A program made the position numbers and the translations under genes. Under the pieces are notes generated by a model. That model made no database searches. It had not been told where the DNA came from and was given only the letters and a program-made list of their open reading frames with translations. From Brachycybe producta (lineage: Eukaryota > Arthropoda > Diplopoda > Playtdesmida > Andrognathidae), in contig JAUPFP010000024.1 of NCBI GenBank assembly GCA_036925085.1, forward strand, positions 696,001 through 760,000: a stretch of DNA of 64,000 nucleotides, in the 5' to 3' direction. This document shows, piece by piece, positions 3,883 to 63,108 of the stretch. Position 1 is the stretch's first letter. Each line of letters begins with the position of its first letter.

Positions 3883-6800
3883 AGATATGAGTTTTGTTTA
3901 TATTCATTTCAAGTTTAAAAATAATCGATATTCAATCGTGATTGCAATCACTTAATCATTTGAAACTCTGTTCGATGTGAGAGAGGGATAAAGTTAAAGA
4001 GGGGTTTTTTTTGGGAAACATTTACTGGTGTTTTAGGCTGAATAATCGGGCCTTGCATCAAGGAACTGGACACCGCCAACCATCAACGAATTGTTTTTTG
4101 TTCTTTTACCCCCTCTTTTTACACTCAACTGATCATCATAATGTCCCGTATGGTGGTCGCTACCGTGGTGGAGAGTGGACAGCTGGCTTTAGTGGCCAAT
4201 ACAACAACTATTATAATAGGGAGATAGATGTCCGGATTGGATGGTTGGTTGGATATTTAAAGGAGGACTAGGACAGAGGTTATTATTAGGGATGTGAAAA
4301 ACAGTTACAGTGTTCAACCTAATGGTAGAGATGGATGAAAAAGTGCTCCTTTTTCTTCCTAGTTTCTAAATTCATTGTGGCATAACTTTTCTCATTCATA
4401 ATGTTGCCCCCATTTTACTTTTTTTTTTTGCTCATCAACTGTATTTTTAGTAACTGCATAAGTTTCTCGTCAAATGCGATTTAGAACAACACATACACTT
4501 AGTTTTTAGTTCTAGAAATATCAAATTGACCGAACTTCCAATTCTCAAAACTCTTGCGTTTTCTTCTTTTTTATTATATTAGAGTTTAAAAGGCTGACAT
4601 TTAGAAAAAAAAAAGTATTTATTCTATTCTATTTTGGTTATGAATTTCTGTTGACAATCATCACTGTCAGGCAGTGTTTCCCTAATTTAATTTGGTCAAG
4701 GAATATAATACTAAGGGATATCGATACTAAGCTGGAAAAATACTAGAAAAAAGTAGTTATGAATAAAAAATAATAGGTAAACATGTAGTGAAATTGATTA
4801 TTTTTTGTTAATTTTCTGATAGAATCCTTACAGAACACTATTTGGGAAACGCTGCTTTATGGGGTTTACCACATTAGCTCTTAGGATGTTTTGTCAGCTT
4901 TTACCTTATTGATGCTGAATTGTAGTTTATATTTTAGTTAGACAGTACACTTTTTATTTTCAGTTTCTAGTGGAAAAGAAGGGGGGGGGGAATGGGTGGG
5001 TGGTGGTGGTTACTATTTATCTTAAAATGGCAGCTGAACCAAACGACCTTGTTGTGTATTTCTATTCAGTTAGTTGCAAACATAGCCACTGCCACCATTG
5101 CAACATCTGCAAACGGGACATCCCGTTGTTGAATCCAATTTTCTCCTTACTATAATAATGTTGCTTACTATATAGACTCCCAATCTTCAGTAGTTAAAAG
5201 TATAAAGTTAGTTATACTATTACTAATAGTTAGGTTGCTATAACAAGGAAGATGCCAAGGGAAAGACACATTTTTGATCACTGTACCAAAATAGCAGCAA
5301 TATAACGACGAATCATGGATGATCAAAATGGTTATTTTTTTTTCTTCTTCTAAGATTCTTGGCAAAGGTTATACTCTTGATGAGTTTTTCTATATTTCTA
5401 GTGTGTAAGTTTCATTGGAAATGTTTTTCTTCTTCTTCTACTGTTGTCATATCCTGCATTTAGTTTTAAACAGAATTTCCGGACTTTTTTTTGTTGGTAG
5501 TTCTCTATTAAGAAATTGATTAATTTCTTGGAAGAAGCTGATGGTTTGCTTTCTGAATGACTTTTTTTTCTCAGCCAAAATAAACAGTGTCGTTGTCATG
5601 ATTAACTTCGATACTATCACTAAAATTTATATATTGGATAGGTCACTGGTTCTCAAACGTATTTTTGTTCATGGCACATTTGCCTGAAGAAATTGCGGCA
5701 CACCTAACAAACATCAGTTACCTCACGGCACCCGCTTTTTATAAACCATTAGTTTAGCGCATAGCCCTACGTTTACTAGTAACCTTTTACTTTTTGCAAT
5801 AAAGTTAAAATTTATTTGAAAAAATTAAATTATATTAACATAATATAAGATTCCCAAAAATTGTGCGGCACACTTTGCAAAACTCACGGCACACCGTTTG
5901 GAAATCACTGGGAGAGAGATGTCTTTTTTTCTCTCTCTACCTTTACAAACTTATATTGCAATCTGTTTATAGCTAGTCTCACTCAGTAAGTTATTATTTT
6001 GTCTTATTATACACCATGTATCTCAAGATTATTCAATTAATAAGTTGTCTCTTATAACCACAATAAAATGTAAGCTGTAGACGTTTTAGATTTCCATATA
6101 CATTATTATATACAGTATAGTGTGGTCCTCTTGTCCAGACGATTTTATTGATATCATTTTTATTAAAAACTATATTAAACTCACGCGTCTTATATAAAGA
6201 CACATGCCGTGGATATTAATACGAGAAATGATCAATTTTTTTAAAACAATTGATGACTGTTTTTTTTTGGTTATTGAACGAGGTGTAATTTTGAAGGACA
6301 GCAACTTTTTTTTTTGTATTTGTGATGATGATGATGATGTATTATTTTAATATATGGAAGGTGACACAAGGTATGTTATTATGAAAACTGAAAACAATAA
6401 ATAGGCCCTGTTATACTTAACTACAGGTTTTATTTTAAGAGTGAAAGGGAACATTTTAAATTATAGTTGTTATTTAATTATTAATTAAAGTCAAGGCAAA
6501 ATTTTGCAAAAGAAAAGAAAAATTGTAAAACAATGATCTATTTTGTATTATACACAGAAATTGTTGTGACTTAGGTTAGAAATAAGAAATTTAGAAATTG
6601 TTTAACAATTTACAAAGCCATTCATTCTTTGATGAATTATTTAAAATTTAAAAAGCAGTTTTTTTTAAATAGCTTTTTGACCATTAAAGTTGCAACAAGA
6701 AATACTAATAAATATTCAAGTTTGAAATTACAGACAGTTAGCCTAATTTTGCGATTGGCCCCCATTGAATGGAGGTTTTTTTTTTGGTATTGAAACATAT

Positions 6801-7851: not shown

Positions 7852-8112
7852 TTATACCTTGTACACATACGAGTTAAATGAATTCAAATTAAATGTGTTT
7901 ATAGGTGAATTATACGGAATCCAGTTAAGGACATGAACACCAACTAAAAATTGACTTTTATTATTAATATTTTAAATTGAAATACTAAATCAATATTTTG
8001 TCAATAGTTTCTATATTATATTTAAGTATTAACTCGATATTTTCAGATTATTAACTGAATAAATTGAATTCGACATGTATTGTTTGTTTGCCCTTCACAG
8101 GGCTCTGTAGAA
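7852..8112 (-). repeat. Interspersed repeat family A, copy 2 (reverse, truncated)
   Basis: Reverse-complement match to copies 1 and 3. It starts at the tip 'ttataccttgtacacat' and runs through 'ggaatccagttaaggac' to 'cttcacagggctctgtagaa', where similarity stops. About 40 bp of the far end are missing, so this copy is truncated. Confidence 0.8.
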
Positions 8113-9451
8113 TTTTCTCTTGACACCGATTCGATTTCACGTTTAAAACCGATGTCAGTCGATTAATTGGTAAAATCGAAGAAACTGAAAAAATAACGAA
8201 ATTTGAAAATTTGTAAAACAATATGTAAAAAACAAAATCGAGAAAATAAAAATAAAAATTGAAGAAAGAAAAAAATAAACTTTACTGTAAATTTCTTAAT
8301 TTTGTTGCTGGTTTTACCCAAAAAAGGTTCCACACAATAAAAAACTAGAAAGTAAAATTATTTACGATTTTTGGTTGTTCCGATTAATCGCATACAACAA
8401 ATAATCGATATTTTGCTTCAGTGAAAACGATTTTTTTTTTTCGATTAATCGTAACGTCGCCAGTCTTAGTTCTGAGTCGTTTCCTGAGGCTTTATTTACT
8501 ACTAAAATTTAGAATATACTGTGGAATTCGTTTTTTTTTTCCCTTTCTGACTATGTTGTGTAAAAAACCGTTATGTTGAGTAGGTGGACGGATTTTTTTG
8601 GTCATGTCTGAATTTTTTTGTGCGTGTGTGCAAATGTAGTCACCACTTACGGTATTTTTATACATATAGTGGAAACCCCTGTCTACATTTTGGTTGTCCT
8701 CTTCTTGCAAGCATATAGGTCTTATTTTATATTTGGCACGGTGCCTTTTGTCCTATTGCCAGAATTACAGTCTGCCTGACTGCCTTCCTCAGTCATTCTG
8801 ACCAAATTTGTGTTTTTTTTTCTTCTGCCTGGCTCCACTTACTCACTCACTGATTGAACCAAAAATGAATCTCTTTTAGATAATGAACTCATCGTTAAAA
8901 TACTATAGGCCTCGTGTTTATCACTTGGAAACATTTGCTTAGAAAACTTGTACTTAATCTTTTTTTTTTTTTTTAAACTATAACAAGTATTTATAAATCA
9001 TCATTTTTATAATCAGTTTAGCTTTTCTCTCCAATGTTAAAACACAAATTTCATTCTGATAACCAATAAGTATTAATTAATAAATTATCATGTAAAAAAA
9101 TAAAATGATCCAAGTACAAGTTTTACTTGTAAGTCTGCAAAGTAATATACAACTGAAGATATATACAAAAAATAGTGTTGAAACACAGTGAAAAATTAAT
9201 TACAATTAGAATTAATTTTTTTTAAAGAAATTAATTAAAATTACTCATTTTCTCCAAAGATTTCCCATTTACAAATAAAATGATAAGAGAAAAAGTGTGA
9301 CATCATCAAAAAACGACAATTACAAAAATGAATATAATTGAAAGTGACACCAAAATGCATATCAGTCATGTCTGTTTGACATTAATCACTAATAGTTAAC
9401 GTGACTTCCGAATAGTTTTGAGAACAAAAAATAGTTTGCAAAACCAGAACC
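8113..9451. other. Gene-free AT-rich sequence
   Basis: No exon seen. The 8110-8460 part contains repeated 'cgattaatcg'-like words ('tcgattaattgg', 'ccgattaatcgc', 'tcgattaatcgt'), which suggests a degenerate short element, but I could not define its ends. Confidence 0.45.
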
Positions 9452-9454
9452 TTA

Positions 9455-9692
9455 GACCATTACTCTCCGGGACTGGCAACTGTGAAAATCTAGTGTTACG
9501 ATAGAGTGGTGACCATAGACTTAATATGGTAGTGACAGCAGCGCCACTTTAGTGGGGAAAAGGTTTTACTATAGGTGTCCATAAGGTTGTACAATAGCCA
9601 CCAGAAGACACTGTTGAAGTTTCACCAGGTTATACGAGAAATCCATCGCCATTGAACACATTACGAGTTGCCAGTCCGGGAGAGTAATGGTC
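9455..9692. mobile_element. Intact MITE with TTA target duplication (PIF/Harbinger-like)
   Basis: About 238 bp bounded by near-perfect 27-bp terminal inverted repeats, starting 'gaccattactctccgggac' on the left and ending 'gtccgggagagtaatggtc' on the right. The element is flanked by TTA on both sides (9452-9454 and 9693-9695). A 3-bp TTA/TAA target duplication is the signature of PIF/Harbinger transposition, so the superfamily call rests on that alone. There is no coding capacity. Confidence 0.75.
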
Positions 9693-10007
9693 TTATACCT
9701 AGTACACACACCTGATAATTTAAATGCATTTCAATAATAAACGTGTTCTACAGAGCCCAGTGAAGGGCAAACAAACAATATGTCGAATTCAATTTATTCA
9801 GTTAGTAATTCCAAAATATTGAGTTAATACTTAAATATAAAATTTATAAACTATTGACAAAATATTGATTTTAAGTATTTCAATTTAAAATATTAATAAT
9901 AAAGTCAATTTTTATTTGGTGTTCATGTCCTTAACTGGATTCCGTATAATTCACCTAAACACATTTAATTTGAATTCATTTAACTCATGCGTGTGTACAA
10001 GGTATAA
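9693..10007 (+). repeat. Interspersed repeat family A, copy 3 (most complete)
   Basis: Most complete copy, about 315 bp. It has short terminal inverted repeats 'ttatacctagtacacac' on the left and 'gtgtgtacaaggtataa' on the right, so the family is a MITE-like DNA element. It directly abuts the preceding MITE: the TTA that serves as that element's right target duplication is also the first three bases of this element. Confidence 0.8.
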
Positions 10008-37452: not shown

Positions 37453-39431
37453 TAATAATTCTAATTGTCAAATGTTAAATATTTCCGACTAAATATAATT
37501 ATAAAAATAAATTAAATTTTTGTTCCGGGCATCAGGTACAACAAAGGACAAAATAATGATGACATGTACATATATACCTTTATTTAGCATAAATTAGCAT
37601 AAATGTACGAATGAATATAAATGTATTTTAATTGAAATGAACGATGTCATTATAAAGAAGTTAACTTAGAATATACTGGAGAAGAGGGTAGTGTAAATTG
37701 TAATTTGGCCTCGTCCACCATCACTGCTATCACTACCATATGTTATGATGCTGTAGTCCTGGGGGAGGAGAAATAGTCGTCCTGGAAGCGAGCCCACACT
37801 TCCTGGTTCATATTTTTTTTTGGTTATTTGCATCATCATCATCATCATCATCGGAAGAAGAAGAAGATGATGATGATGGTGATGATGCCATTTTCAAGAC
37901 TCTTGAACATATACTTCCTTCTCTTAAGTTTTGTAGTCTGTGATGACTAAAAAGACTTTTTTTGGCCTTTTTTATCCATATTTTTTCCATCACCCATGAT
38001 GATGATGTACAAGAATGTATTTCAATCACTATTGGAGTCCATAATTCAAACCGTAAAGGTGGTATTGAATATTTGCACTTGAAGTATAAAAACTTTGTAT
38101 GAGTTGTGTGTCATTGCCTAACTGGTGCCCACTTTCATTGAAAATGGGTGACTTCAGGAGAAAAGTGTTTTTTCTTTCTTTCTGGCGTCAGTCAAATATG
38201 TTACCAGTTTGTTTGCCAATTTGAGAAAAAGAAGAAAGAGAGGGAGGGAGGTTAACCTCATAAAATAAAATTTCTAACCTGAATTATGGAACTTATTTGA
38301 GCGGCAACTTCTTTATATTTCGTTTCATCGCAAGAAATTAATTTAATTTATGAAAAAGTCTTTTTAATTTTCAAATAAGAAATTGCATCCTTGACCAAAG
38401 ATGTAATTTCTGTCAAAAGGATTTTCAAGAATTTATGTCATGTTTTAAAATTTTAATAAGAAGTAAGATTTTCGAATGACTTTTATTAATACACAAAAAA
38501 AAAGTCATTAAAATAAATCTTTTATTTTTGTGTCAAATGTGAAGGACTTTTAGAATTAATAAAGATTTAACAACATTTATTAATGTGTGTGTTCCTGTTT
38601 GTAAATTACAAAAACAAACAACCATTAGAAATCATTAGAGCGCGGCACATTATAAAACCAACAGCTGGTTTTCAAGTGACCTTGCTCTGAGGCTATTATT
38701 ATTTGTTTCTTCCTTTTGAAAAAAAAATAGTGTTGAGAAATAATTCTTGTATAATTTTAAATCATAAGTTACTACTATTATGTGAGCAAAATGTCAACAT
38801 AAATACAATTTGTTAAAAAATATATAATAATATTAAGCTGGAGAGAGAGAGAGAGTGTGCGTACAGTGAAGTTATTTTAAGGGGCCCATTCTATTCTCCA
38901 TGAGCATCATTCTGGCGTCACTTAACTTTCAGTAAAAATTCTTTTGCTAATTTTTTATTGTCGCCATTGGTTTTTTTAAAGTTATATTTGAGACTTGATG
39001 TTCTTAGATATTTACAGTGTTACAGTACGTTTAGGCCTCTTTTTTTAAAGTGACTTACTGCCTTTACTTGACATACTTTTTTTGGGGTAAAACTTGCACA
39101 TATTTAGCAGACGACTTCGACCATCCCCCACTTTGAAAACTCCTCAAAAACCATCATTTTTTTCTTTCAAACTTCTAATTTTTTTTCGTGTCTCTCGTTG
39201 AAGAACTTTTTCTTTTTTTGAAGGTGTTTTTACCATATTTGGAACCTTTGAAAAACGTCTTTTTTTTTTGTCATATAAAATGTCACTTAAAATTTTTCCT
39301 GCAAAAAAATGAACAAGTTCTTGTTTTGAGTTGGAATTTTTCGCTCATCATTTATAAAAAAACAGCATGTTATTTAGATTATTATAAATGAATGTTAAAT
39401 AAATTTAATAATTGTTTTTTCTTGTTTTCAG

Positions 39432-42400
39432 TGAGGCCACCGACGGTGACAGGCCTCAAGAACACCACCGTCAAATTAAATAAACGTCTGAAACTTGTGT
39501 GTAGGGCCAAAGGAAGACCAATGGCAAAAATCACTTGGTTTAAAGATGGACACCCATTGGTTGAAAACTCAAAAGTTATCGTCAATGTTACCAGGTATAA
39601 ATATAAATTTTGTTTTTGTAGGTAAATTGGAAAGACAAAAGGTGATCTTTTAATTAAAGCATTTTAAGGTGGTTTTAAAGTGTAAATGACACTTTTTTTA
39701 ACACTCTTGATTATATTCTGTTATTCAGAAGAACAAAATGAAGAGAATCATCTTCAATATGTTTTAGAAACTAGAAGATTAGCTCAACCAGATACGGTGA
39801 TTTTTCATGTTGATATTTTTCAAAATAAACTTTTTATAGACAAAATTTTTTTTAAAAAAAAATGTCTGCTTAAAGTTGGATCATTTTCAAACTAACATAA
39901 AAGACCACTACATGAAAATATCCTTAAGTGATATTGAGTTACCCTTCTAGTTTCTAGTCCAAGTTTTTCTTGATTTTTTTATCTTCTGAAAGACTGAATT
40001 AATTAACAGTTTGATAAATTAGCTGTTTATAAAATTATCTTAATGGAAGTTAATTCGATCGGTTTTGCTCAAAATCTGGAATAGTTCCTTTTTTTTTAAA
40101 AAAAAAAAACCCTAAAATAGTTAAAAGATTTTTTGTATATATTATTATATAGTGAAATGACACTGTTTCATTTTTATTATCATCATTCTTCGAAAAAAGA
40201 AACGTTTACGTAGCATAAATATATTGTATTTAGGTTGTTGTTGTTTTTGTTGTCAGATTGTTCAAGTGGCACAAAACATAAAATAAGGTTTTTTTTTGCC
40301 GCTTTTACTACTAAAAAAAAAACAAATGAATTTATTTTTCAAACAAGATTCCTACGTATTTATTTGTATATATAAGACAATGAAATGACTGATATTTTGT
40401 TTTTCCAAATACAAATCTTTTTATTGTGACATTAAGATTTTCTTGTCATCTATTAAGAAGAATGTGTCCTCCTCCTCCTCCTCTCCTAATGTTTGTCTGT
40501 GACAAAAGTAGCATCCAACAAAAACATACAGAAAAAGAATCACAAATCTATTCTTCTTTCTACTTTTCAAATAGATATTACTTTTATCATAAAAGTAATA
40601 ATACTCTCCAATAGAAGAATAGATTTTGCTTCTGAATTTAAAACAAATTTTATACTTTATGAAATTGGTTCTCTTGAAACATAGTGAATAATGACATAAT
40701 CTGATAAACGTTTTATTGGATTACGAGCGTATGTCATTATTCACTATGTTTCAAGAGAACCAATTTCATAAAGTATAAAATTTGCTGCACATTTGAAACT
40801 TAAGGTGATTTTTTTTAGATTCAAGAGAAACTTTGAATGTGTTTTAAAACTATAATGGGTGATAGCACAAGGATGTATTGGCATTTTTATGTTGGTATCT
40901 TTCAAAATAAACGTTTTATATAGAGAAATTAAATAATGTCATCAGCCTGAAGTTAGGTCATTGTTAACCTAACATAAATAGCTTATTTTAAAAGATATCA
41001 ATATGAAAATACTCTTAAGTGATTGAGTTACCTTTCTAGTTTCTAAAACACATTGAAGTTTTTCTTCATTTTGCACCTGAATGGCAGAATAATCAGAGTT
41101 TGATAATATAAAACCACCTTAACAACAACAAATCAAAATGTTAGTTGTTTAAAAAATGAATTAAATTTCTAGGAAAAATTTTGAATATCATCAGAAAACA
41201 ATTACACAATTTAGGGTCTTATTTTAAATGATTGCTAAGTTAAAGCTAATGCGAAACTCATTAACTTTTACATGCACCTTCTATCAAAAGTTCATGAGTT
41301 TAGCATTAGCATTGACTTAGCAATAATTCAAAATTCGACTGTTAAATTTGAGCAACTTTTTAAATTCTTTTTAAAATTGTTTCCAATGCATTTTGTCAAT
41401 CAACTGAAGTTATTTAGTTTCAGAGATAATCTATTTTAAACGATTTTAACTGTGTAACTCTTTATGGTTGTGTTAATGTGTACAAAAAGGATTTGAAAAA
41501 GGGATTTTGCACTAATTTGCAACTTCTGCTCTTTTTTTTTTGTTCTTCTTCTTCTGAAGTTATTTTTCTTCCATCCTAACGCTCTGTCATTTGCTAACTT
41601 TTTTTTTTTGTCTGGGCTACATTTTTATTCTGAAAAGACTCAACCTGAAAACTAAATTTGAAACAACAAATGTAAAAAAGAAAAAAAATACTTGTTGTTT
41701 TGAAGTTTCATATTACCGTCGAAGTCGTCGTCGAGTTCTAACTCTTTGGAGTTTTTCAAATCCACGTTGTGACCTACATAAAAATAAATCCTCCTCCTCC
41801 TTCTCTCCACCAACTTTTTCTTAAGTCTTATTATTTTTTTCTTTCTGAGCATAATTTGTAAAAACATGTAAATATTTACCATAAATTTGTACTTCACAAC
41901 CGTGTAAAAGCTTTTCAAAATGTTTGCATCTAACAAAATATACTGTATGCATAATTTCTTGTTGTCTTTCTAAAAAAAAATTAATGAAAGAAACGTATTT
42001 ATTTTTAAAAGTTCAGAATTATTTATAACAAGTTTATTAATAAAACACAACCAAAATTGATTGGATTAAAAAAAGTTGAGGTCCAACCATATTTGTGGTC
42101 AATTATTAAGGTGATCTTAAAAGTTTAACACCGCCCCCCCTCTCTTGACCTTTGAATGAAGAGAAACTTGAAAGCGTTTTAGAAACTAGAAGAGTAGCAA
42201 GGATTTTCATTTTGATATATTTTAAAATAAGCTTTTTATGTCAGTTTAAAAATGATCAAACTTTTGAGCAGACCGATTGTTATTAATTTTATCCATAAAG
42301 ACAATAAATATGAAAATACTATTAAGTATAATATAATTAGATTTTGCGGTGGTTAATAAAATCTCTTAAAAAATGTGGTTTGTATTTTAATAAGAAACTT

Positions 42401-45400
42401 GTTTTATTAATTATTAAAGTGACGACTAATATTATTGATATTAATTTTAACAATTGTTATTTCACAGGGCAGTTTCTCAAGTAACCATATTAAATACAAG
42501 TGAAGGAGATGGTGGATTGTACGAATGTCGAGCCACCATCAGTGAGACCGGACTCTCGTCGTCTTTAACTGCGACGGTGACGGTGAAGAGACGGGGAAAG
42601 TCTCGTAACAAGTCCAGGACTCATGTCCCGGGTCAAGGTGCTGTGTCACATGAATGACTATAATTATACATAATTTATAATAACCTTAATGTCTAATGTT
42701 TGAGATATATTTTATTTTGCCAGTCACCAGAAGGGCGTCATATAAGACCTTATACTTTTAGTCATAAATTATTGGTGAAGTTTTATATAGATTTTTTTTT
42801 CAGGGTGCAAAAAATGCCCAAATGTGTGAAAGAAAAACATTTTTTGTCAGGGCTCATTAGCGTCTTTAGTTTTCTGCAGATCCGTTTACATTGAGCCGGG
42901 TTTTTTTTTATCCAAATGGCCATATATACAAAAAAAATTGTTTTCATTAGTCTCGTTTCTTTACTTTCAGAAAGTTTATTTTGAACATTTTTAAGTAGTA
43001 ATTATTGTTGACTTTTATAAAAACAAATCAACCAAAAAAATGCTTTCCTTTACGTGTCATTTATTTTTATGTTTTTACGTTAGTTACAAGTAATTTCTAT
43101 TGGTTAGTTTCATTGATGGATGATTCCCACAAAAATTGCACTAAATTTACTCCGAACTAAGATATATAAACATGGAGGTAGCTTAACTAAGAACTCAGCA
43201 TAAAATGGAGCATTCTGTGCCAACAGTGGTGGCGCCACATCTATTTAGAGCTAAATTACTCCTTATTGATCAGCACAATTCAATGATAATGCAAATTAGT
43301 TAATGGCCATGTAAAAGAAATTAAACATTTTATTTACAAAGAAGACCCTTGACGAGAGGCTACACAATTAAAGCTCATTGATTCTCTCTTAACATGGAGT
43401 TGAGCTACCTCCAGACAAGTCTTGAGAGTGATTTTATAGTTTCAACTTGCAAAGAAGATGGAGTTAAGAGTGACACTGATACTTTTTTGTTGTTGCTATA
43501 CTGTATAGTAGTTCTGCAAAATGTTACTACTAGAATCTATTCTTAATCTCACCCCCAGAGTGATTACTGGAATTTTAAGGGTATTTATCTAGTTTTGGCT
43601 TGAGTTGTGACAAGTGGTAATGTTGCATACATGGGGAGGAGGAGGAGGAGGGGATCCGGAACATTGTAAAACTATTTACTACCGTATAAAAAAAGAATAG
43701 ACACCTAGGTAACATTATTTTGGAGATTTTGAGAATCTCAATTGTGTGTTTTGTGACAGTGTTGCCACCAGTTGCACTGTTTCAGTGACAGTTCCAACCA
43801 CATTCCTCAGCATAGTTTAGGCTATCTTTCATTTCTTTAACTGAAATATCCAAATCTTATGAGTGTAGTATGTTACATTTATATAGTATTTTTACTAAAA
43901 AGTATTATTTGTTGTGTCAAACTTCAAAAAAAAATTGTTAAGGCAGCTCAAGGGATGTTTCATTTCTTGTATTTCTTTTTCTTGTTGTTAGTCACTTAGT
44001 CGCCTATTCTTTGGGAAAGAAAAACCCTCCTTCCTCAACCTGGTTTTAAAAATAGGTTCCACACTTGGGTTTTTCTCTCTTTCTCTTTGCTATTAAAAGA
44101 TTTATGGCAGAATGTTTCTCAATTAGCAGTTCTTGTTTTTATGTCCTATAATAAATACCTTTTTTTCTTCTAAAATGATGGAAATTAATTAATCACAATG
44201 CTTTTTTTTTGTTTATGTATATATAGGACAAAACATCGAGAGTCCGTATACAGGGAAACCATGTCCTGTTGATAACTTCTGTCAGAACAACGGAACTTGT
44301 CTATTTTATGAAAGTATTGGGGAGCCAGTATGTAAGTAAGTACCATCTGACAACAAATATGTTAATTGTAGAAAAAAAACGTTGAGTAATTACTTCAATA
44401 TTGCAAAAAACAAACAGAATTATGCATTTTGCAAACAAAGGAGCTGGTTAGAGGCTAGAGTTTTTCTAGAATTGAAATATAGCTGAATTAGAGTTATAGG
44501 TTAGCTCCTAGCCTCTTTGATTGCAAAAAGCATAATTTTATTTTTGCTTTAATAATCATCATTTTTAGATTAATTTCTTGCTGTGTGTTTTGAGTCTCTT
44601 TAATTAATGGTTGCATGGCCTCTCTACTGTAGTGCTGGGATTTATTAATTATTATTGCACATTTGCATGCAGCCTTTTTTATATTTATTAATTTCTTATT
44701 CCCATGATTCATACGAATATTAAATTTTCTTGAGTTTCAATTTTGATTATTACAATGGACTGCATGTTATAATATCAACATTGGATTTATTATAGACTAA
44801 CTCCTTATTGTAATATGTTACATCGTTACTCTTATTATCCAAATGGAAATGATTTAAAAGTTTCTTTTGTTATCTTTTGACGTTTATTTGCTTATTATCT
44901 TTTATTTGTTGCACTCTATTCATATTTTTTTTATGAAAGAAATGGCTTTTTTTATCATTCTAGTTTTTTGTGTGTTGCATGATGAATGTGTTATGACTGT
45001 GAAAGTTTTATTTTTGGAATTAAGATGTTTTAGGAACAGCTACGTTTTAAACCAGCAACAAACACTAAAGAGAAAATTGAAAGTGTATTAGAAAGTAAAA
45101 GGATGATTGAATCACTTTATATAGTGATATGTTTCAAAATAAACTTTTTATAGACAAAAATTAAAAACATATTATCTGCTTGGATCATTTTCAAACTGGG
45201 CATAAAAAGCTTATTTAAAACCATGAAAATATTCGAGAAATATAAATTGATGGTAATTCTAGTGATTGAGCTACCTTTCTAGTTTCTAAAACACAGTCGA
45301 GTTTCTTTTCATTTTACACTTCTGAAAGAATAATCAAGAGTTAAAACCATCTTAAGATTTGATTTTGATTAGAGATGACAGTTTTAAGATTTTCGTGATG

Positions 45401-48400
45401 AAATATTGGTAAAAAAAACTGTAACTACATTAATTATGAACTTAATTGTTAAAATGATTCTGTTAATATTAATTAATCAAATAGAATAATAATTATTCTG
45501 AAATAGATTAAATTTGTAATCTTGTTGTTGAGTTTAGAAATTTCGTTTTATCTACAGTAGTTAAAAAATTGTTTTCCAGCCATTAATAAGATTTGACATT
45601 TACTTTGGATGACACTTTGAGTCAATATTCATTTTCTTCTTAATTTTATTGTTGTTAATCTGTACATAAGTCGTTGAACTCTCTTTACTTTCCATCTTCA
45701 TTGTTATAAGGGGGTTACAATATGACTTATGATGAAAAACATCCTCAGACACACACACAGAAACATCTATATATATTAATAGTAGTCTTTGTCAGCAATA
45801 TTTTTTGTCTTATTTGTTACTTTCTTTGGTGATGGGAAGTGGTTGTAGTCGGTGTCTTTTTTGTCTCTCCATATAATAATATTAATGGGAAAAATGTTTT
45901 ATCACGAAAGACAGAATAAAAAAAAACGTCTTATCTCCCATTGAAATCAAATTGTCTGCTGTAATCTTATATATATTACTGATGTGTCTTGGATTGAGAA
46001 GATTTTTGATTAAGAAAAAGGGGGGCATTGTCACCAAACATGCTGGTGGTGTTAGTGGTGCTTCCACGGTCGCCACAAAACACTAAACTCATTTCTTAAA
46101 AGTTTCTTATTTTTCCCCTTTTTAAAACCCTTCTAGTAAAATGTTTTATGTCACTTCTATTTTATATATGCTTTATGATATCTTTGCATCTTTAATTAAC
46201 TTTGTTTAGTATTAGTTTTATTCTGTTTAGATGTGTCTAAGTAATTGAATTAGAACTAACTAGTTCTGGTGGACACAATTACTAATTAAGCTTTCTGGTT
46301 TGTTGTGGCTTTTGTGAATGGAAAGAAGATATGGTTATGTCATATTTGTTATCGTCATGTCTTTTTTTTTAACTACATTATAATTAATTTATGGTCAATT
46401 ATCTACTAAAACTAAAAGTAGAAGAAGAAAGAAAATATAATTGTTGATTTCGCTTTGTGTAATTGTTGTTGTTTTTTCCGCATTTTTCTTCTTTTCCGCT
46501 TTCTTTATTAATTACTCTTTTTGTGTTTTTGTTGTTTTAGATGTCCTGTAGGTTACGATGGATATCGGTGTAATATAAAAAAACCAGTTGTATCCAACGT
46601 CAGTACGTAAAATTTCACATTCAAATTTTGATACATAAGTATATTTTAATGTCCAACAATATATTTTTTATAAAAATATGATGATGCAACTAATAACATA
46701 TGTTGCTGGTATCTTTTTAATATATATATATTTATTGTTGTTATAATATGCAGTCCATTGAGTCCATCAGTGCAGTTTCCAGAAATATGTATTTTAAGCT
46801 GCGTAACTTTCATAGAATTTAGTTTTTCTTTTCAAATTGTTATATGAACATTTTTTTTAAGTATTTCTAAATATTGGATTTTAAATAATGGATAATCAAT
46901 TGTTGTCTTAGATTGTCCATTATTCAGCAATCAGCATGTGAGATACATTTTAAATTCTGAAGTAATTACAGTGGAAGAAACACTTTTAACACGAAATGGT
47001 AGTGATCGAAATATATTTTTTTGTGTTAAACGAAAGAATTTTGTATTCCCATTATACATTATACTATAAGGGTACCGAACCGAAAATATATTTCGTGTTA
47101 TATATCCTATTTTTTGTTTTATCCGATATCGTGTTAAATGATTTTCATTTTAATTCTATAATTTATTTACATAAAATAAAAGTTCGATTTCACTCAACAC
47201 ATAATTGAGGCAAATTATACATGTAAAAATCCCTTAACCTCAAAACAGCTATAGTTAGGTGTGTTTTTTTTTAATATTTAATATTTGATTTTTTTTGTTT
47301 TGTTTTATGAACTTTTTTATTTTGTACGTTCACTTCAGATGTATGGAAGGATTCATTGGAGGAAGATGTGAGCACAAAAACATTCTCTTTGTATTGGGGG
47401 AAGTAAAACGTACGTATTTATGTATTGCAGCTGAGAGATGTTTTGTAACGTGTGTGTCTCTGTGTGTGTGTAAATTAACTAGTTACTGTTTGTTATAACT
47501 TATAAGTTATAACTTTACTTCGAAGAAAAACCTATCTCTCGTCTAGGAGAATTTCAATAAATTGATTTGTAATCTTAAAATAATAATCTGGAAGTAACCA
47601 CAAGAACGACTATGAACCAGTAACAGAAATTTATAAACAATCTTATTTATGTTTTAAATAAGAACAAAACACATTTTTTTTGTATTTTTGATTTCCTAGT
47701 ACAGAGGTGCCTTTCATGTATTTAAATAAACTATAACTCGTTCAAAAGGTCTTGTCCAGCGGAGCATACATTATGCAAATTCTATTCGGCGGAAACATAA
47801 AACAAGCTAAAGATAATGTGTGCGAAAGTTAGAATTTATATGGATGTCTATGGCATTTTTAACATACGAGCCTTAAGTGGGGCCTAAACTGGTAATTTTT
47901 AAATAATCCTCTGATAGAATGAGGGGCTGTGCCGATCCCAGGCCTCTTGCAACAAGCCCTAACCTAAACTAGCTTAACCTAGTTCACCATCACCCAAAAG
48001 CCATGTAAATTCCAACTTCTGCACGTGATTTTTTACGCTTTATAGTTTTATTTAAATTGGCGAGAGCCCGACTGGCACCGATAACTAGGATTATGTATTT
48101 CTTTTTTATTTTCTCCAAACCATTTTCTTTTGCTTTTTTGCAGAAGTGGATTGGACGTATCAAAAAAGTATTCACACTGTTGTGGTCATTCTTGGGGTCT
48201 TATTATGTTTGACTATTTTGAGTAATGTGGTCTACTTCATCTTCAGGTAGGCATCAATTGGAATTTCATAAGATTGTCTAATTCTAATTGATTGTGAATG
48301 CAAACACTTTCATTTATGTGTGTGTTTTATATACGAGTTATTTTAAATAATAATTTTAACAAACATAAATTAAGAGATTTTTTGTTGTGATTGTGTAACG

Positions 48401-49172
48401 AATTGTACTTTTTACATGTGAGGTGTTTCTACTGTTATGTTCAGAGCCAAAAGGAAAGTGCAGAGGGAAAAGACAAGAAGATTGTCTGGTTTTATTAGGA
48501 AAAACCTCGGCTCCGACGGAGGGACGGGAATCGAGAATGCCGTAGAAATGCAGCATGTCACTTCTAATCGTAGAGTACGATACACATACATATTATATCA
48601 AAATCGATTCGAACTTCATTTCTGGTGTCTTGTATATTATGTGTTTGTTCATGTATAATTTACTAACTAGTGTGTTTAACAATTAAACGTGTTCAGTGTT
48701 TGAGTTTTTCCTTTTCGTTTGTTTTCGATTGCATATTTCGCTGCATGGACTCATTGGACTAGAATATTTTGGTTCTCATTTTTTCGTCTTTTCAAACTCT
48801 TAATCTAAGGTATTTGTCTTTTTTTTTTAATTTTTGTATTTTCAGGCTAAAATTGGTCGCAGAAATAAAGGAGAGGATGCCAACACCGATTTTGATGAAC
48901 GAGGGCAGAATTCGGAACTGTTGGCTACCATTCGTTGTTCCTCTTTTAACGGGATCGGAGAAACTAGTCGTTGTCGTAAAGCTTGTCAGTTTTGCAACAA
49001 TTCAGCGAGTGACTGCGACGAAAAGTTGTCCGATCCCGTATCGAGCGAGCGTTTTTTAAAAAGGGTTCGGCGGCTAGATGGCGTTTCAAGTACTGGTGAT
49101 CTCAACCTGAACTCTTTTGAAGAACAGCTGTTTGGCTTTGTTGCTTCCGGTTTTTCAGTTTCCGTCGGATAA
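39432..49172 (+). CDS. Neuregulin/vein-like EGF-family ligand (Ig + EGF + transmembrane), 5' incomplete
   Basis: Likely an ErbB/EGFR ligand precursor made at the cell surface. Exons: 39432-39594, 42468-42637, 44227-44335, then either 46541-46602 or 47339-47409, then 48144-48246, 48445-48574 and 48846-49172. Every junction is GT..AG and keeps frame, giving 353 or 356 residues from the first visible exon. Residues 1-100 form an I-set/C2 Ig domain (Cys in 'LVCRAKG', Trp in 'ITWFKDG', Cys in 'GGLYECRA'). A basic linker follows ('KRRGKSRNKSR'), then a six-Cys EGF domain (about 122-158, 'FCQNNGTC'). After a short juxtamembrane stretch comes a hydrophobic helix (about 180-202, 'VVVILGVLLCLTILSNVVYF'), a basic stop-transfer ('RAKRKVQREKTRR') and a tail of about 150 residues. 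Ig followed by EGF is the layout of neuregulins and Drosophila vein; the transmembrane helix favours the neuregulin type. A polyadenylation signal AATAAA lies at 49303-49308. Signal peptide and upstream exons were not found. The domain call is firm; orthology is inferred. Confidence 0.85.
39663..40045 (+). mobile_element. Foldback MITE, family FB1, copy 3 (intronic)
   Basis: Starts 'taaggtggttttaaagtgt' and contains 'gttttagaaactagaagatt', 'aaataaactttttatagac', and then the inverted words 'ttaagtgat' and 'cccttctagtttcta'. It lies in the intron that splits the Ig domain of the neuregulin-like gene. The short open frame across it is not a gene. Confidence 0.8.
40645..40783. repeat. Perfect 54-bp inverted repeat with 31-bp spacer
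   Basis: The arm at 40645-40698 (starting 'aaattttatactttatgaaa') is the exact reverse complement of 40730-40783. No mismatch was found over 54 bp, while the other palindromes in this window are clearly diverged. It sits in the intron splitting the Ig domain, just upstream of an FB1 copy, and shares no words with FB1. Confidence 0.9.
40799..41122 (+). mobile_element. Foldback MITE, family FB1, copy 4 (intronic)
   Basis: Begins 'cttaaggtgattttttttag', has 'ggtatctttcaaaataaac' then inverted 'cttattttaaaagatatca', 'cttaagtgattgagttacc' and 'ttctagtttctaaaacaca', and ends 'ataaaaccaccttaa'. Both tips are present, so it is one of the more complete copies. Confidence 0.8.
41212..41340. mobile_element. 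MITE family D, near-complete palindrome (intronic)
   Basis: The whole element folds on itself: 'gattgctaagttaaagctaa' pairs with 'ttagcattgacttagcaat', and 'gcgaaactcattaactttta' with 'aaaagttcatgagtttagc'. The tips are 'tagggtcttatttta' and 'caaaattcgact'. Intronic, non-coding. Confidence 0.7.
42107..42330 (+). mobile_element. Foldback MITE, family FB1, copy 5 (intronic, truncated)
   Basis: The left arm is well preserved ('taaggtgatcttaaaagttt', 'gttttagaaactagaagag', 'aaataagctttttatgtcag'). The right arm stops after 'atatgaaaatactattaagt'. It lies about 140 bp upstream of the second Ig exon. Confidence 0.75.
44418..44537. mobile_element. MITE family B, uninterrupted copy (intronic)
   Basis: Inverted tips 'aattatgcattttgcaaa' and 'ttgcaaaaagcataatt', with inner inverted words 'gaggctagag' and 'ctcctagcctc'. 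About 120 bp, just downstream of the first EGF exon. It is the reference for the interrupted copy at 1824-2480. Confidence 0.7.
45040..45355 (+). mobile_element. Foldback MITE, family FB1, copy 6 (intronic)
   Basis: Has 'gtgtattagaaagtaaaagg', 'caaaataaactttttatag', 'cataaaaagcttatt', 'gtgattgagctacctttct' and 'agtttctaaaacaca', and ends 'gttaaaaccatcttaag'. It lies between the shared EGF exon and the first alternative EGF exon. Confidence 0.75.
46541..46602 (+). other. Alternative EGF exon 1 of the neuregulin-like gene
   Basis: 62-nt exon bounded by 'gttgttttag' and the donor 'gtacgtaa'. Joined to the shared exon ending at 44335 it gives 'KCPVGYDGYRC', which supplies the fifth and sixth EGF cysteines with the usual eight-residue spacing, followed by 'NIKKPVVSNV' before the transmembrane exon. 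It starts in phase 2 and ends in phase 1. It is in frame only when the exon at 47339 is left out. Confidence 0.85.
47339..47409 (+). other. Alternative EGF exon 2 of the neuregulin-like gene
   Basis: 71-nt exon bounded by 'gttcacttcag' and the donor 'gtacgtat'. Joined to the shared exon it gives 'KCMEGFIGGRC', again eight residues between the fifth and sixth cysteines, then 'EHKNILFVLGEVK' and a more hydrophobic juxtamembrane stretch. Its phases and donor hexamer are the same as those of the exon at 46541, as expected of a duplicated, mutually exclusive exon. It is 736 nt downstream of that exon. Confidence 0.85.
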
Positions 49173-49302
49173 GGAGGACACTTCGTTCGTAAAATCGACT
49201 CTTTCCGTTGATACAGTGACCGCAGCTTTTTTAAGTCACAAGATGACTGATTTTTAGCTTTTCTATGACGTCGCATTCATTCGAGAGGAATGCAATTTTT
49301 TG

Positions 49303-49308
49303 AATAAA
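49303..49308 (+). terminator. Candidate polyadenylation signal AATAAA
   Basis: Canonical hexamer about 130 nt after the neuregulin-like stop codon; the first one downstream. Confidence 0.6.
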
Positions 49309-50455
49309 GTTGTTGACTGAAACACTTTTCTAACTTTTTTTAAAGAAAAATTAGAAGATGGGAAGTGACGTAGACCATAGACGATGGATTCTTTTTTTAA
49401 GGAAAAGTCTGACCATGACAGTGTTTGACGTCCGAACACTACACTATGTTTGTTGCATTTACTATGATTTTTGGGGGGTTTTGTGTGGTGAAGATGAATC
49501 AGTGCCAATGAGTGTGTGAAACAAAAATAGGAATTTTTATATATTCCAATTATTTAAAATATAAAATTTGGACAAATATTAATATTCCCACAGCTATTGT
49601 ACATTTATTTAATTATATTTGGTGAGGCAGTCGTTTCTTATAACCTGTCAATAATGTTGTGTTTTCTTTGTAAAAAAAATGAATGATTTGAACTCAGTGA
49701 CTGAAAAATGTTCGACGTAATTTGTACTTTTTATTTTAATTATTATTTGTGGCCCATTTCTCCTCCTTTTCTTTTTGTGTTTATTATTATTATTATTTCA
49801 AACTGTAGTCACCTTATAGAAAAAAAAGTCCCTGTTTGTTTGTTTTTTTGATTGAATTTGTGAAAATTGTGGATATAGTGAAACCAATTTTACCTCAAGG
49901 AAAAAGCCTCTTTAGAAGTGATTTAATTTTTTTTGGGTTCCATTTTTTTGTTGGAATTTATTTTTTATTTTGTAATATGTTGAATTTTTTTTTCTTCAAA
50001 TTTTTTTTTTGGTTTATAGTTGAATGGATTTTACGTTTTACGAGACGTATTATTAAGAGAAACTCATGAAAATGTTAAAGTTTGGTAGGTGTGAAAAAAA
50101 AAACTTTGGAAATTTTTAGTTAAAAAGACACTCGGAAAAAAACATCATAATTAAATAATAATAGATTTATTATTCACTCACTTTGTAGATCGTAATTAAT
50201 GTTTTTTTTTTTTAAAAGAGCACGTCTCTTTCTGCCTATTTTTTTTCTATATTGGGCATTTAAATCCGGGTGTCACTTAACTACTTTTGCTTTGTGTCAC
50301 AAAAAATATTTGAATTTTCAATCAAAAAAAGTAAAAGTAAATATTATTGAAAAACAATTTGTGTGCTTCAAGTAGAATTTAGCTTTAACAATTAAAAGTC
50401 CACTTTGCATCGATTAGAATTTTTAATTTCGATTTTTTGTTTACACAAAAAAAAC

Positions 50456-55661: not shown

Positions 55662-58600
55662 TTATTCATATGCAAACTCAACATGTTGGGTTCCCGGAGG
55701 GGCTCGATAGGTTGGGGGCAATCGAGTTGAGTTTGGTATGAATATATCGTTAAATCGTCGCAGTCTACGACCAGGTCCCGATCCCAATTGGGGAGCATCT
55801 TCTTCGGCCTGTCCAGAATATGGTTCCCAAGCTTGAGCGGCTAATCTTGCCGGAGCACGAGGCGAGACGTACACGCGGGAAGTACGAGACGTATGCGACG
55901 GTGCCTCTTTGTACACGGTATGTACGTGGCCGTTCGAGTATTCTTCGTCAACCTCCACGTAATCTTTCGGTGGTGGCCAGATGAACTTCTTTGATGCTGT
56001 ACGAGTTAAAATGTATCGAGTTACAATGAAAACCTTCTTTCAATGGCGTTTTATTATACGTACGTGTTCCACCTCGCCACTTGACAGACTGTGATGACGT
56101 ACTCAGTGCCTATAAACGGAATAAATGTAATTAAAGAGTGAATCGAGAGTGATTATGGTTCGCTATTACATCTTGTGATTTCTGAGGTGGCCACACCGGC
56201 TTTCGACCCATCGATGGTGACCAAGTTACGGTGGGCTGAACGCTGCCACCACCTTGTGTCGGATAATTCTCGGTCGGTATGATCGACGTGAACGTTGAAC
56301 CAGTTCTCGGTGCACTCACGTTGTTGTAGTCTACAGAGGAGGGAGCTTTTGCTTGCTGTTGGTGTTGCTGTGTTTGTGGACGGGCCACCGGTTGCTGCTG
56401 ACGTTGCTGTGGCTGCTGCTGTGGTACCGGACGCTGTTGCTGTTGCGTTGGCTGACGTTGTTGCGGTTGTTGTTGTTGGGGTGGCTGACGTTGTTGTTGC
56501 GGTTGCTGCTGTGGTACCGGACGCTGTTGCTGTTGTGGTGGCTGACGTTGCTGCTGCGGCTGCTGTTGTGGTGGTGGCTGACGTTGTTGCTGTGGCTGCT
56601 GTTGTGGTACCGGACGCTGTTGCTGTTGTGGTGGCTGACGTTGCTGCTGCTGTGGCTGTTGTTGCGGTACCTGCCGTTGTTGCTGCTGCTGTTGGGGTGG
56701 TGGTTGACGTTGTTGCTGCTGTTGTTGCAATAGCACCTGCTGTTGTGGTGATTGACGTGGCGGTTGTTGTTGTTGGACCACTTGTTGCTGCCTTATTTGT
56801 TGCTGCTGCTGTTGATAGTAGTACTGCTGCTGCTGTTGCTTCTGATACTGATCATATTGAGGGGATTGAACTTCATTTCTTGCAGGCACCGGCTTTGGTG
56901 GTGGCTGAGGTGCTGCAACTTGCCTTCTGTGCAACAAGATCAAGGAGTTCGATACATTAATAGCAGCAACTAAACGTATTTTTAAGAATTTATTTACTTC
57001 ATGTAAGTTGGTGAAGCACTCGGAGAAGAAGCGGCCGAAGATGATGTTTCTGTAAGAAATTTATTTTAAACTAAGTGAATGATGGATTTTGTGTAATTTA
57101 TTACAGTTGTCTAAAGTCATAATATGGAGAAAAAGATTTAAATGCATATTCTAATACAGTATAACTAAACATGTTTCATGCTTGTTTAAACTATACTGAT
57201 ACGAGCCTCGTATAATATTATACTTGTTCATGCGAATATCATCGTGTGATATTTCACTATGGAAGTAACTATAGGTGCTAAATACAAACGAGAGAGTATA
57301 TAGAGACTTGTTTTTATCTCTTTGGACACATTTTTATCCATGCTTCTCATCCAGTATTTTTTTTGTATTCTATGAGTACCTGATTCCTCGAGGGAACGTT
57401 GTAGCCTGAGGAACGATTGGGATTGAAGGATTGGGGATTTGACGACATTTCGGGAAAGGAGATTTTGACTTTGATGACCAGTAATTACACCCCACTTGCC
57501 TTCTTCCTCTTCCTCCTCCTCCTCTTCCTCTTCGTCTTCTTCCTCGGTGTGAACCGTTCTGTACACCTCGGTTCTCTTTACAGTAGTAGTTGGAGCACTC
57601 ATTGTACGCTGATTCACACTATGATTAACGTTAAAAAATATTTCTAGTTAACTTCAATGGTTTTATTTAAATCCTGAAAAAGAGATAGCGAGAGAGAGAG
57701 AGAGAGAGAGACTAGGTTTATTTCAAGTTGTGTCAGTTGTTTATTCTTTCTATATTCACGTAAGATTGTCTCATATGTTATGTTTAGACAGTTTTGGCAA
57801 CTGGCTCTGGTTTACAGAGGTTTCTTCCTTCTTTCTTACCTTTACTGATTTTGGGTGCTTTTTTTCTGTTTTCTGCCAAAGGATTATTTTAGACATACAT
57901 TCAGTAAAGTTTTCTAAAGTGTTTTAGAGGAATTTTTGGTTGGCCTTCAAAGTGAAACCACTCCATTTTTTTCTCCAGTTTTCTCTTTTAACACTTTCCA
58001 TTATATTTTTGCACATTTTCTTTCGAGAATTTTTTTTTAAATAAAAATTTCAAAGTGTTAAAGGACGTGTTCAAAAGACATTAATTTTTTAAACATTAGT
58101 TCATTTTAAAACTAACATATTATATGTTTATTTATCTTTAAACAATTTTATTTTGAGGAATGGGAATTTTTTTGGCATCGTTCAAAGAATCGATTCAGCT
58201 CATTTCAGAATGTTTTTTTTTTGTTTAGAAAAAAAAAAGAAAGTATTTTACGACCTAATTGTATATATTTTAAAATATGTTATTTATTTAAAAATGTGCT
58301 TAATGTTAAACTAACAAAATAGTTAGCAAAATGGGAAAATCTGTTGGTTTTTACGAGTTCGTTCTCACAAATCAGACTCATATTTATAAATTTTAATGAA
58401 AATCTTCTTTAAACTTGACTGACTAACATTTTAACATTTTATAGAAATCAGAATATATTTTAGTCAAAGGCAGAGCTAAACTACTAAATTTTTAAATGAA
58501 ACTTTGTATCTAAAGTTTTTGAGTTTAGCACAATCTTTAACATAGATTTAAGTATTCACACTTTTATTGCAGCATAGAAATTTTCAAATTAATTCTCAAC

Positions 58601-61443: not shown

Positions 61444-61703
61444 AAGCTGGTTTTAAATAATAAACGTCCCTCTTGAACTCTGGTTATTCTGTCATTCTAA
61501 AGCAAAATTAAGAGAAACTTGAAAGTAGAAGGGTAGTTCAATCACTGAGATGTTGATATCTTTCAAAATAAGCTTTTGAAGTTTCTCAAGTGATTGAACT
61601 ACCTTTGTAGTTTCTGAAACATGTTCAGATTTGTTTGAATTTTGCTCATCTGAAAGATAGAATAATGAAGTTTGAAAATCAACTGTTCTTAAAACAACTT
61701 AAC
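61444..61703 (+). mobile_element. Foldback MITE, family FB1, copy 9 (short)
   Basis: Left arm 'cttgaaagtagaagggtag', 'gatatctttcaaaataagct'; right arm 'caagtgattgaactacctt', 'tgtagtttctgaaacat', ending 'cttaaaacaacttaac'. The central loop is shorter than in other copies. Confidence 0.75.
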
Positions 61704-62176: not shown

Positions 62177-63108
62177 TCATTTCGGCTGCGGAAACTTCCT
62201 TAGATATACATTTAGTTGTTTTGACGTAATCGTTTTCACTCCAGGTGCTATACTCTCTTTATCTTTCTGGATTTGTTTCTGATACTTTACACCCTAAAGA
62301 AGAAGAAAAAAAAAAACGTCTGTTTAATCCCGTTCGAGAAAACATCCGAAATTTATCAAGTGATACCTGGAACTCGTTGTAACATTTCTGAAATGTAGAC
62401 ACTTCTGACGAACATTTCGTCTGATCAAAATCGTTTTGCTTGAGACACGTGAACATGGCTTGCATCTGTTGCATGCATGCAACCTCTGAAACAACAAACA
62501 AATATTTTTTTAAAAAAAAAATGGTTTTATGAACAGCTGATTTTCAAACTCTTGAATATTAGTCTTATCTGACTTTGAAAAGCGCGAAATTAAAAGAGTG
62601 TTTTAGAAACTAGAAGGATACCCTAATTCACTTCATGGTATTTTCATGTTTTCATATCTTTTAAACTAAACTTTTTTTATAAACAAATTATTGTCTGTTT
62701 CAAGTTATTTCATTTTAAAACATAAAAAGCTTTATTTTGAAAAAAAATTTCCACATGATGAACTCATTAAGTGATTGAGCAATCCTTCTAGTTTCTAAAA
62801 CAAATTCAAGTTTATCTTCATTTTGCTCCCGTTTACACTTTAAAACCACCATATTTACAATAGAATGCAATAATAAAGTTTGGGTAGTATAGACGTGGCT
62901 CTTTCGATTGAGTTACATGGACGCATGGCACCGTTGAGATACATGTAAGAACCACGTTTGCTCTACCTTTACTTTTTTTTAACGCCTTACCACTCGTTCT
63001 TCCGCCTTTTCCAGAAACCTTATCTCGTAATTTTAAAGGTAGAAGTTCTCTAAATGGAATTTTGGCTAAACACTGAGCTTTTCTTCCATTATGAACCATG
63101 ATAAGCAT
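62177..63108 (-). CDS. CHCHD1: Mitochondrial small ribosomal subunit protein mS37 (CHCHD1)
   Basis: Small subunit protein of the mitochondrial ribosome, a twin-CX9C protein of the kind oxidised and imported by the MIA40 pathway. Three exons in transcript order: 62991-63108, 62367-62485, 62177-62293. Introns are phase 1 and phase 0, giving 117 residues (human 118). The N-terminus is basic with 'GRKAQCLAKIPFRELLPLKL'. The CHCH fold has Cys43-x9-Cys53 ('CMQQMQAMFTC') and Cys64-x9-Cys74 ('CSSEVSTFQKC'), both exact. The protein ends 'LRKFPQPK', like the 'LQRFPNKPYLS' end of the human protein. The first ATG of the exon was used; a second Met at codon 4 is also possible. Intron 1 holds FB1 copy 10. 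It is head-to-head with METTL14. Confidence 0.93.
62519..62851 (+). mobile_element. Foldback MITE, family FB1, copy 10 (CHCHD1 intron 1)
   Basis: Starts 'aaatggttttatgaacagct' and has 'gttttagaaactagaaggat', 'acataaaaagctttatttt', 'aagtgattgagcaatcctt' and 'ctagtttctaaaacaaatt', and ends 'cactttaaaaccaccat'. It makes up about two thirds of the 505-bp intron. Confidence 0.8.

Follow-up and report, generated by a model that had tools for sequence, protein, structure and literature searches.

A probable alpha/beta-like pair of alternative EGF exons in a neuregulin-type ligand gene

A neuregulin-type gene of an invertebrate carries two neighbouring exons, A and B, each of which encodes the second half of its single EGF domain. 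The pair is alpha/beta-like, it is laid out like that of human NRG1, and it is real in the sequence. The best explanation, with a probability of about 80%, is that the second half of the EGF domain would be supplied by exon A or exon B, one per membrane-anchored ligand mRNA: the reading frame, and probably nonsense-mediated decay, would filter the anchored-ligand mRNAs to one exon each, the choice would probably be regulated near exon A, and its likely effect would be on the strength, duration or shedding of the signal. A gene of this kind suggests two versions of a signal from one gene.

The window (the whole stretch of DNA analysed, 64,000 nucleotides long, C24:696001-760000) is part of a 295-Mb eukaryote genome. 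Judged from reading frames, splice sites and domain matches, it carries a neuregulin-type ErbB ligand gene consisting of an Ig domain, one EGF domain, a transmembrane helix and a short cytoplasmic tail (Table 1). The I-set match lies above the Pfam cut-off in the joined protein of both isoforms, and the EGF match passes its cut-off of 21.5 bits with either exon (30.2 bits for isoform A, 23.3 bits for isoform B). The joined-frame computation ended the first cytoplasmic exon at 48571, a position without GT; the frame is identical to that obtained with the end at 48574.

Table 1. Exons of the ligand gene and candidate control elements (positions within the window)
Feature	Position	Strand	Length and basis
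Exon, first part of Ig (I-set) domain	39432..39594	+	163 nt; frame, splice sites; Pfam I-set, 53 bits on joined protein
Exon, remainder of Ig domain and basic spacer	42468..42637	+	170 nt; frame, splice sites; Pfam I-set
Common EGF exon, cysteines 1-4	44227..44335	+	109 nt, ends in phase 2; Pfam EGF
Alternative exon A, cysteines 5-6	46541..46602	+	62 nt, phase 2 to 1; frame, Pfam, motif scan
Alternative exon B, cysteines 5-6	47339..47409	+	71 nt, phase 2 to 1; frame, Pfam, PDB, motif scan
Juxtamembrane and transmembrane exon	48144..48246	+	103 nt, phase 1 to 2; hydrophobic stretch, frame
First cytoplasmic exon	48445..48574	+	130 nt, phase 2 to 0; donor AGA/GTACGA, frame
Last coding exon	48846..49172	+	stop codon 49170-49172; frame
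Four UGCAUG hexamers, RBFOX-type	44612, 44664, 44761, 44976 (44612..44981)	+	intron upstream of exon A
Candidate stem, 5' arm	44753..44778	+	23 of 26 complementary to 46735-46760; contains one UGCAUG
Candidate stem, 3' arm	46735..46760	+	132 nt past exon A

Several published marks place the gene among the ErbB ligands. According to the available text of PMC1618406, an intron between cysteines 4 and 5 near the transmembrane segment marks these ligands and is common to nearly all of them, and all verified ErbB ligands except the tomoregulins have an arginine directly before cysteine 6. Here, a single six-cysteine EGF module lies near the hydrophobic stretch encoded by 48144-48246, an intron splits the module between cysteines 4 and 5, and the arginine is present in both exons (YRC in A, GRC in B). 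The combination of an I-set Ig domain, an EGF domain and a transmembrane region, the last represented by the hydrophobic exon, is the plan named NRG-type and regarded as an innovation of the Bilateria in the available text of PMC4914847. The cytoplasmic part differs from that of vertebrate neuregulins, in that the neuregulin intracellular family is absent from the Pfam matches of either isoform up to an E-value of 1. The frame of the first cytoplasmic exon is open beyond its donor (48422-48658), and retention of the following intron would yield a different short tail. At the 5' end, a signal-peptide exon was not found: nine candidates are listed, some of them overlapping, and none is convincing.

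No second neuregulin-type locus was found among 18 genome matches, of which four belong to this gene and the other 14 lie at an E-value of at least 0.0026. Thirteen of the 14 (all but L022) were translated, and seven minus-strand loci, L021 (also minus) excepted, were re-read in the correct orientation. On reading, these loci seem to belong to repeated-EGF proteins or, for L017, to an EGF-transmembrane protein, or they lack an EGF domain.

The borders of the two exons are ttgttttag/A...GTCA/gtacgt for exon A and cacttcag/A...AAAC/gtacgt for exon B; the donor upstream of the pair follows position 44335, and the acceptor downstream of it precedes 48144. Exon A encodes CPVGYDGYRCNIKKPVVSNV and exon B encodes CMEGFIGGRCEHKNILFVLGEVK, both in frame with the transmembrane exon. 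At its start, each exon completes the codon of the lysine that precedes cysteine 5; its final base opens a codon that is finished by the transmembrane exon. With A alone or B alone, the frame stays open through to the stop at 49170. With A and B together, translation would run through a whole EGF domain and a short novel tail into a stop codon starting at 47404, close to the end of B; with neither, a stop codon begins at 48223, inside the transmembrane exon. Either exon singly is therefore in frame and both or none are out of frame, as in mutually exclusive exons. A preliminary description of this DNA had given the coordinates, lengths, phases and shared donor of both exons, all of which are exact on re-reading of the sequence, and the frame enforcement that it proposed is borne out by the same three outcomes. 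The hexamer of the two donors, GTACGT, occurs a third time at 47324, in the acceptor region of exon B, and ten times in all on the plus strand of the window.

Chance does not readily produce such exons. On both strands of the window, the strict motif AG/N followed by C-x2-G-[FYW]-x-G-x2-C occurs in exactly two places, which are A and B, and the same motif followed by a phase-1 GT is absent from 2.56 Mb of simulated sequence (order-1 Markov, one strand). By the strict or the middle motif, there is no third alternative exon in the window. The loosest of the three motifs yields one simulated place and an extra match at 5105 on the minus strand, which was rejected as a third exon because it matches this motif only and is without a donor.

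Up to cysteine 6, exons A and B are identical at 18 of 31 nucleotides, so that the duplication behind them, judged by this divergence, is not recent. When copies were allowed to decay neutrally to the present distance between A and B, only 0.19% of 200,000 simulated copies kept both cysteines, an open frame and the splice dinucleotides; because so few unconstrained copies stay intact, both exons have very probably been maintained. We infer from this sequence evidence that both are used in transcripts. The two predicted products have cysteines 1-4 in common. Their differences begin after cysteine 5 and extend to the residues that immediately follow cysteine 6, where B has an EGF/TGF-alpha-like ending; the fifth residue after cysteine 6 is a proline in A and an isoleucine in B.

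Two other readings concern the use of the exons. In one, which is quite improbable, one exon, more likely A, is a relic or negligibly used, and the gene works with a single exon. The splice sites of A do score below those of B (donor 3.0 and acceptor 0.8, against 5.2 and 3.2, by approximate matrices), but both exons keep their cysteines, their frame, the arginine typical of the ligands and their splice sites despite long divergence, and isoform A outscores isoform B with the Pfam EGF model. By the same approximate matrices, the donor of exon A falls in the top 13.6% of all GT and its acceptor in the top 11.9% of all AG; equally weak sites occur in the same gene, at the acceptor of the common EGF exon (18.2%) and the donor of the first cytoplasmic exon (13.5%). 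In the other reading, the pair would chiefly switch between an anchored and a soluble ligand, through double inclusion with its stop at 47404 or through read-through of a donor. This is unlikely, although double inclusion leaves a full EGF domain with a short new tail; such an mRNA, if it escaped decay, would code for a soluble ligand. Translation past the donor of A ends after two codons, and past that of B at 47496. Copies of AATAAA lie at 47175, 47556 and 47725, but this hexamer is frequent in such AT-rich DNA. The stop at 47404 sits 106 nt before the junction of the transmembrane and cytoplasmic exons, which would predict decay, and both exons singly fit the transmembrane exon, a property needless for soluble-only use. 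A 2024 study (PMC11360300, as far as its text was available) describes human NRG1 mRNAs that carry both the alpha and the beta exon, with the frame shifting in the beta exon, as it does on double inclusion here; for one such form, a product lacking a membrane anchor is predicted, and for another, decay of the mRNA. The preliminary description had held that exactly one of the two exons must be used: the frame does break with both or none, but the claim is too strong, given these NRG1 transcripts and the complete EGF domain that double inclusion preserves in the present gene. The preferred reading limits the rule of one exon per mRNA to the anchored ligand.

The choice between A and B would probably be regulated, since there is no simple block of a steric or spliceosomal type. 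Exclusion by a too-short intron or by mixed spliceosomes, judged by the criteria in the available text of PMC5740500, is unsupported because 736 nt separate A from B and the sites of both are GT-AG. The most likely point of control is the surroundings of exon A, the weaker of the two, where a cluster of UGCAUG hexamers and a long-range intronic stem might act. Four UGCAUG copies fall within 370 nt, forming the tightest group of four in the window, and of 180 composition-matched hexamers, UGCAUG alone reaches four copies in the intron; the hexamer was noticed first and then examined, and it is frequent, with 28 copies on the plus strand of the window. The protein RBFOX binds UGCAUG.

The two arms of the candidate stem form 23 of 26 Watson-Crick pairs, with a duplex energy of -32.9 kcal/mol, and, by reading, two of the three mismatched positions would allow a G-U pair. 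None of 150 shuffles reaches 23 of 26 (mean 19.7, maximum 22), but 10 of 132 pairs of window stretches do, so complementarity alone is not decisive. The arms are not a dispersed repeat, because 19 bases of the 3' arm, searched against the genome, match only the two arms within one mismatch; seven more places match at two mismatches, and a reversed control pattern matches one. After filtering, the window holds 15 inverted pairs of at least 22 of 26 with arms within 3 kb, seven of them with starts more than 500 nt apart, and the exon-A stem is the only one of those seven whose arms are without another copy in the window at six mismatches. A competing partner for exon B was not found: the intron after B reaches 19 and 20 of 26 against the other two introns, which is the level of the shuffles. 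Known RNA families give no match at the gathering score in 39000-50000. The inverted pair, overlapping the UGCAUG cluster, is a good candidate for a control element around exon A, though the controls speak for it only in part, and is new here; the stem could loop exon A out, or carry UGCAUG sites close to A. In the available text of PMC5224494, base-pairing is linked to mutually exclusive splicing in insects, and inverted repeats that loop out one duplicated exon are tentatively proposed for U2AF1. With one candidate stem, four UGCAUG sites and two exons, the gene offers a compact case for how such pairs are chosen.

The swapping of neuregulin alpha and beta forms is usually framed around several ErbB receptors. 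When the present genome was searched for receptor domain IV and the receptor L domain, one gene, which is EGFR-like and lies on C36, matched both, where vertebrates have four ErbB receptor genes. The other L-domain gene lies on C4, lacks a match to domain IV and presumably encodes an insulin-type receptor. On C76, a match to domain IV, considered as an ErbB receptor, was rejected, its sequence reading as that of a furin-like protein. The count rests on these two families, by which a strongly diverged second ErbB could be missed. Vertebrate-style receptor choice is unlikely as the purpose of the exon pair, because one ErbB-type receptor gene was found. The earlier proposal of two isoforms with different receptor-binding surfaces is weakened by this count as far as it means different ErbB affinity in the vertebrate manner. 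It is likely instead that the isoforms would differ in affinity or strength, duration or shedding of the signal. With an alpha/beta-like pair in an animal where one ErbB-type receptor gene was found, it becomes testable whether the switch arose, ahead of the multiplication of receptors, to tune how strongly a single signal acts or how it is released.

The place of the pair is shared with human NRG1, in which the alpha exon measures 68 nt, the beta exon 59 nt and the transmembrane exon 103 nt; NRG2 likewise has alternative alpha and beta EGF exons. The lengths in the present gene are 62 nt for A, 71 nt for B and 103 nt for the transmembrane exon, the last equal to the human figure. The human heregulin chains in the PDB (1hre for alpha, 8u4i and 3u7u for beta) are the same as far as the K-C of cysteine 5 and diverge immediately after it, and A and B likewise part right after the lysine before cysteine 5, so the NRG1-like exon pair at the same place, as originally described, holds. 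The shared features also include the plan of Ig domain, EGF domain and transmembrane segment. An ungapped comparison of the juxtamembrane and transmembrane stretch with the human sequence gives 14 identical residues of 52, with YQK in register. The fifth residue after cysteine 6 is again a proline in human alpha, as in A, and a methionine in human beta. The second half encoded by exon B differs from both NRG1 forms in scoring nearer to TGF-alpha and EGF than to either.

As to ancestry, the likeness to vertebrates may be convergence on preset exon borders after an independent tandem duplication of the second-half exon in the animal's own lineage, which is compatible with the two-exon mechanism; the alternative is inheritance from a bilaterian ancestor. 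Independent duplication is somewhat the more probable, with a slight edge over deep inheritance of alpha and beta, because tandem exon duplications are often parallel in the same families: in the available text of PMC9741552, 7 of 42 events in human-fly families with tandem-exon events in both were of common ancestry, and the others looked parallel. The position of the swap is not independent evidence of inheritance, as the intron between cysteines 4 and 5 is so widespread among ErbB ligands (PMC1618406). Sequence comparison does not favour the pairing of A with alpha and B with beta either. Over 18 residues, BLOSUM sums with NRG1 are 55 for A-alpha and B-beta, 52 for the swapped pairing and 55 for A-B and alpha-beta; with NRG2, they are 65, 74 and 60. 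Against independent duplication stand the same phases, the 103-nt transmembrane exon, the divergence of A and B, and the order of the pair: the upstream exon is the one with the proline both here and in human NRG1. Both the order of the human exons, alpha first and beta downstream, and the frame enforcement of that pair are deduced from the double-inclusion transcripts in the available text of PMC11360300. A bolder account, which is doubtful, makes the alpha/beta switch a bilaterian inheritance that predates the vertebrates and the multiplication of ErbB receptors and first graded the signal through a single receptor; here, the choice would fall to an RNA stem around exon A, with one of the clustered RBFOX-type sites lying within it, and with protein binding and base-pairing competing or cooperating.

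The best PDB match of isoform B is an EGF/TGF-alpha chimera (8.7e-9), followed by EGF chains (about 1e-7) and heregulin alpha (1.3e-4). In a point against the preferred reading, isoform A best matches a Notch EGF domain (2.1e-9), ahead of EGF (6.9e-7) and heregulin alpha (4.2e-4). Exon B is nearest to TGF-alpha, with 9 of 18 residues identical; it reads RCEHKNIL where TGF-alpha has RCEHADLL. The present gene differs from EGF and TGF-alpha in its Ig domain, which those ligands are not known to have, and no alternative second half is known in either of them. Closer in plan are Drosophila Vein and C. elegans SISS-1, which also have an Ig and an EGF domain within one ligand (PMC12477552, PMC1618406, in the text available). 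The intron between cysteines 4 and 5 is present in vein also, but Vein is described as secreted, in contrast with the transmembrane exon of the present gene (PMC1618406). If the animal is an arthropod, or at least an ecdysozoan, this gene would correspond to Vein, with a membrane anchor in addition. The available parts of PMC12477552 and PMC1618406 make no mention of alternative EGF exons in Vein or SISS-1, and no report of such exons in an invertebrate neuregulin or Vein was found in the open-access literature, as far as its text was available. The main text of four papers on tandem exons (PMC9741552, PMC4465641, PMC5740500, PMC7954323) does not name neuregulins. Like known mutually exclusive tandem exons, A and B are two neighbouring exons of homologous type with lengths not divisible by three, a property of 60% of human mutually exclusive clusters (PMC5740500, available text). 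Such exons are recognised by junction reads of each that span the other (PMC5740500), whereas the present pair is predicted from sequence; a further difference is that the stem brackets exon A only.

Other features of the window and genome were recorded alongside the gene. In both orientations, a repeat that contains GTTTTAGAAACTAGAAG-like and CAAAATAAACTTTTTATAGAC-like stretches is dispersed over introns of this gene and elsewhere (39750-39900, 41034-41060, 42166-42290, 61521-61546 and 62594-62807). A perfect 26-nt inverted pair, at 7902 and 9932 (7902-9957), is 2 kb apart and has three copies in the window at six mismatches; these are perhaps the ends of a mobile element. On the minus strand, a glutamine-rich open frame of 309 amino acids (56131-57060) contains 'APRTGST' and adjoins a frame of 125 amino acids (55662-56039), and another open frame (62259-62543) has spaced cysteine pairs and resembles mitochondrial proteins of the CHCHD type.

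The mitochondrial contig C442 (15,359 bases, code 5; L029, L030), with gene names assigned by reading, has the order cox1-cox2-atp6-cox3-nad3-nad6-cob-nad2, the rRNA genes and nad4L-nad4-nad5 on one strand, with nad1 opposite; the nad4L-nad4-nad5 block is thus on the cox1 strand. Tentatively, this arrangement resembles that of arthropods, or at least of ecdysozoans. Scans of this contig for tRNAs and Rfam families gave no matches. Further cox1 copies, at C1:12697416-12698753 (with one TAA inside) and in pieces at C17:4027703-4029047 (L026-L028), are perhaps nuclear copies.
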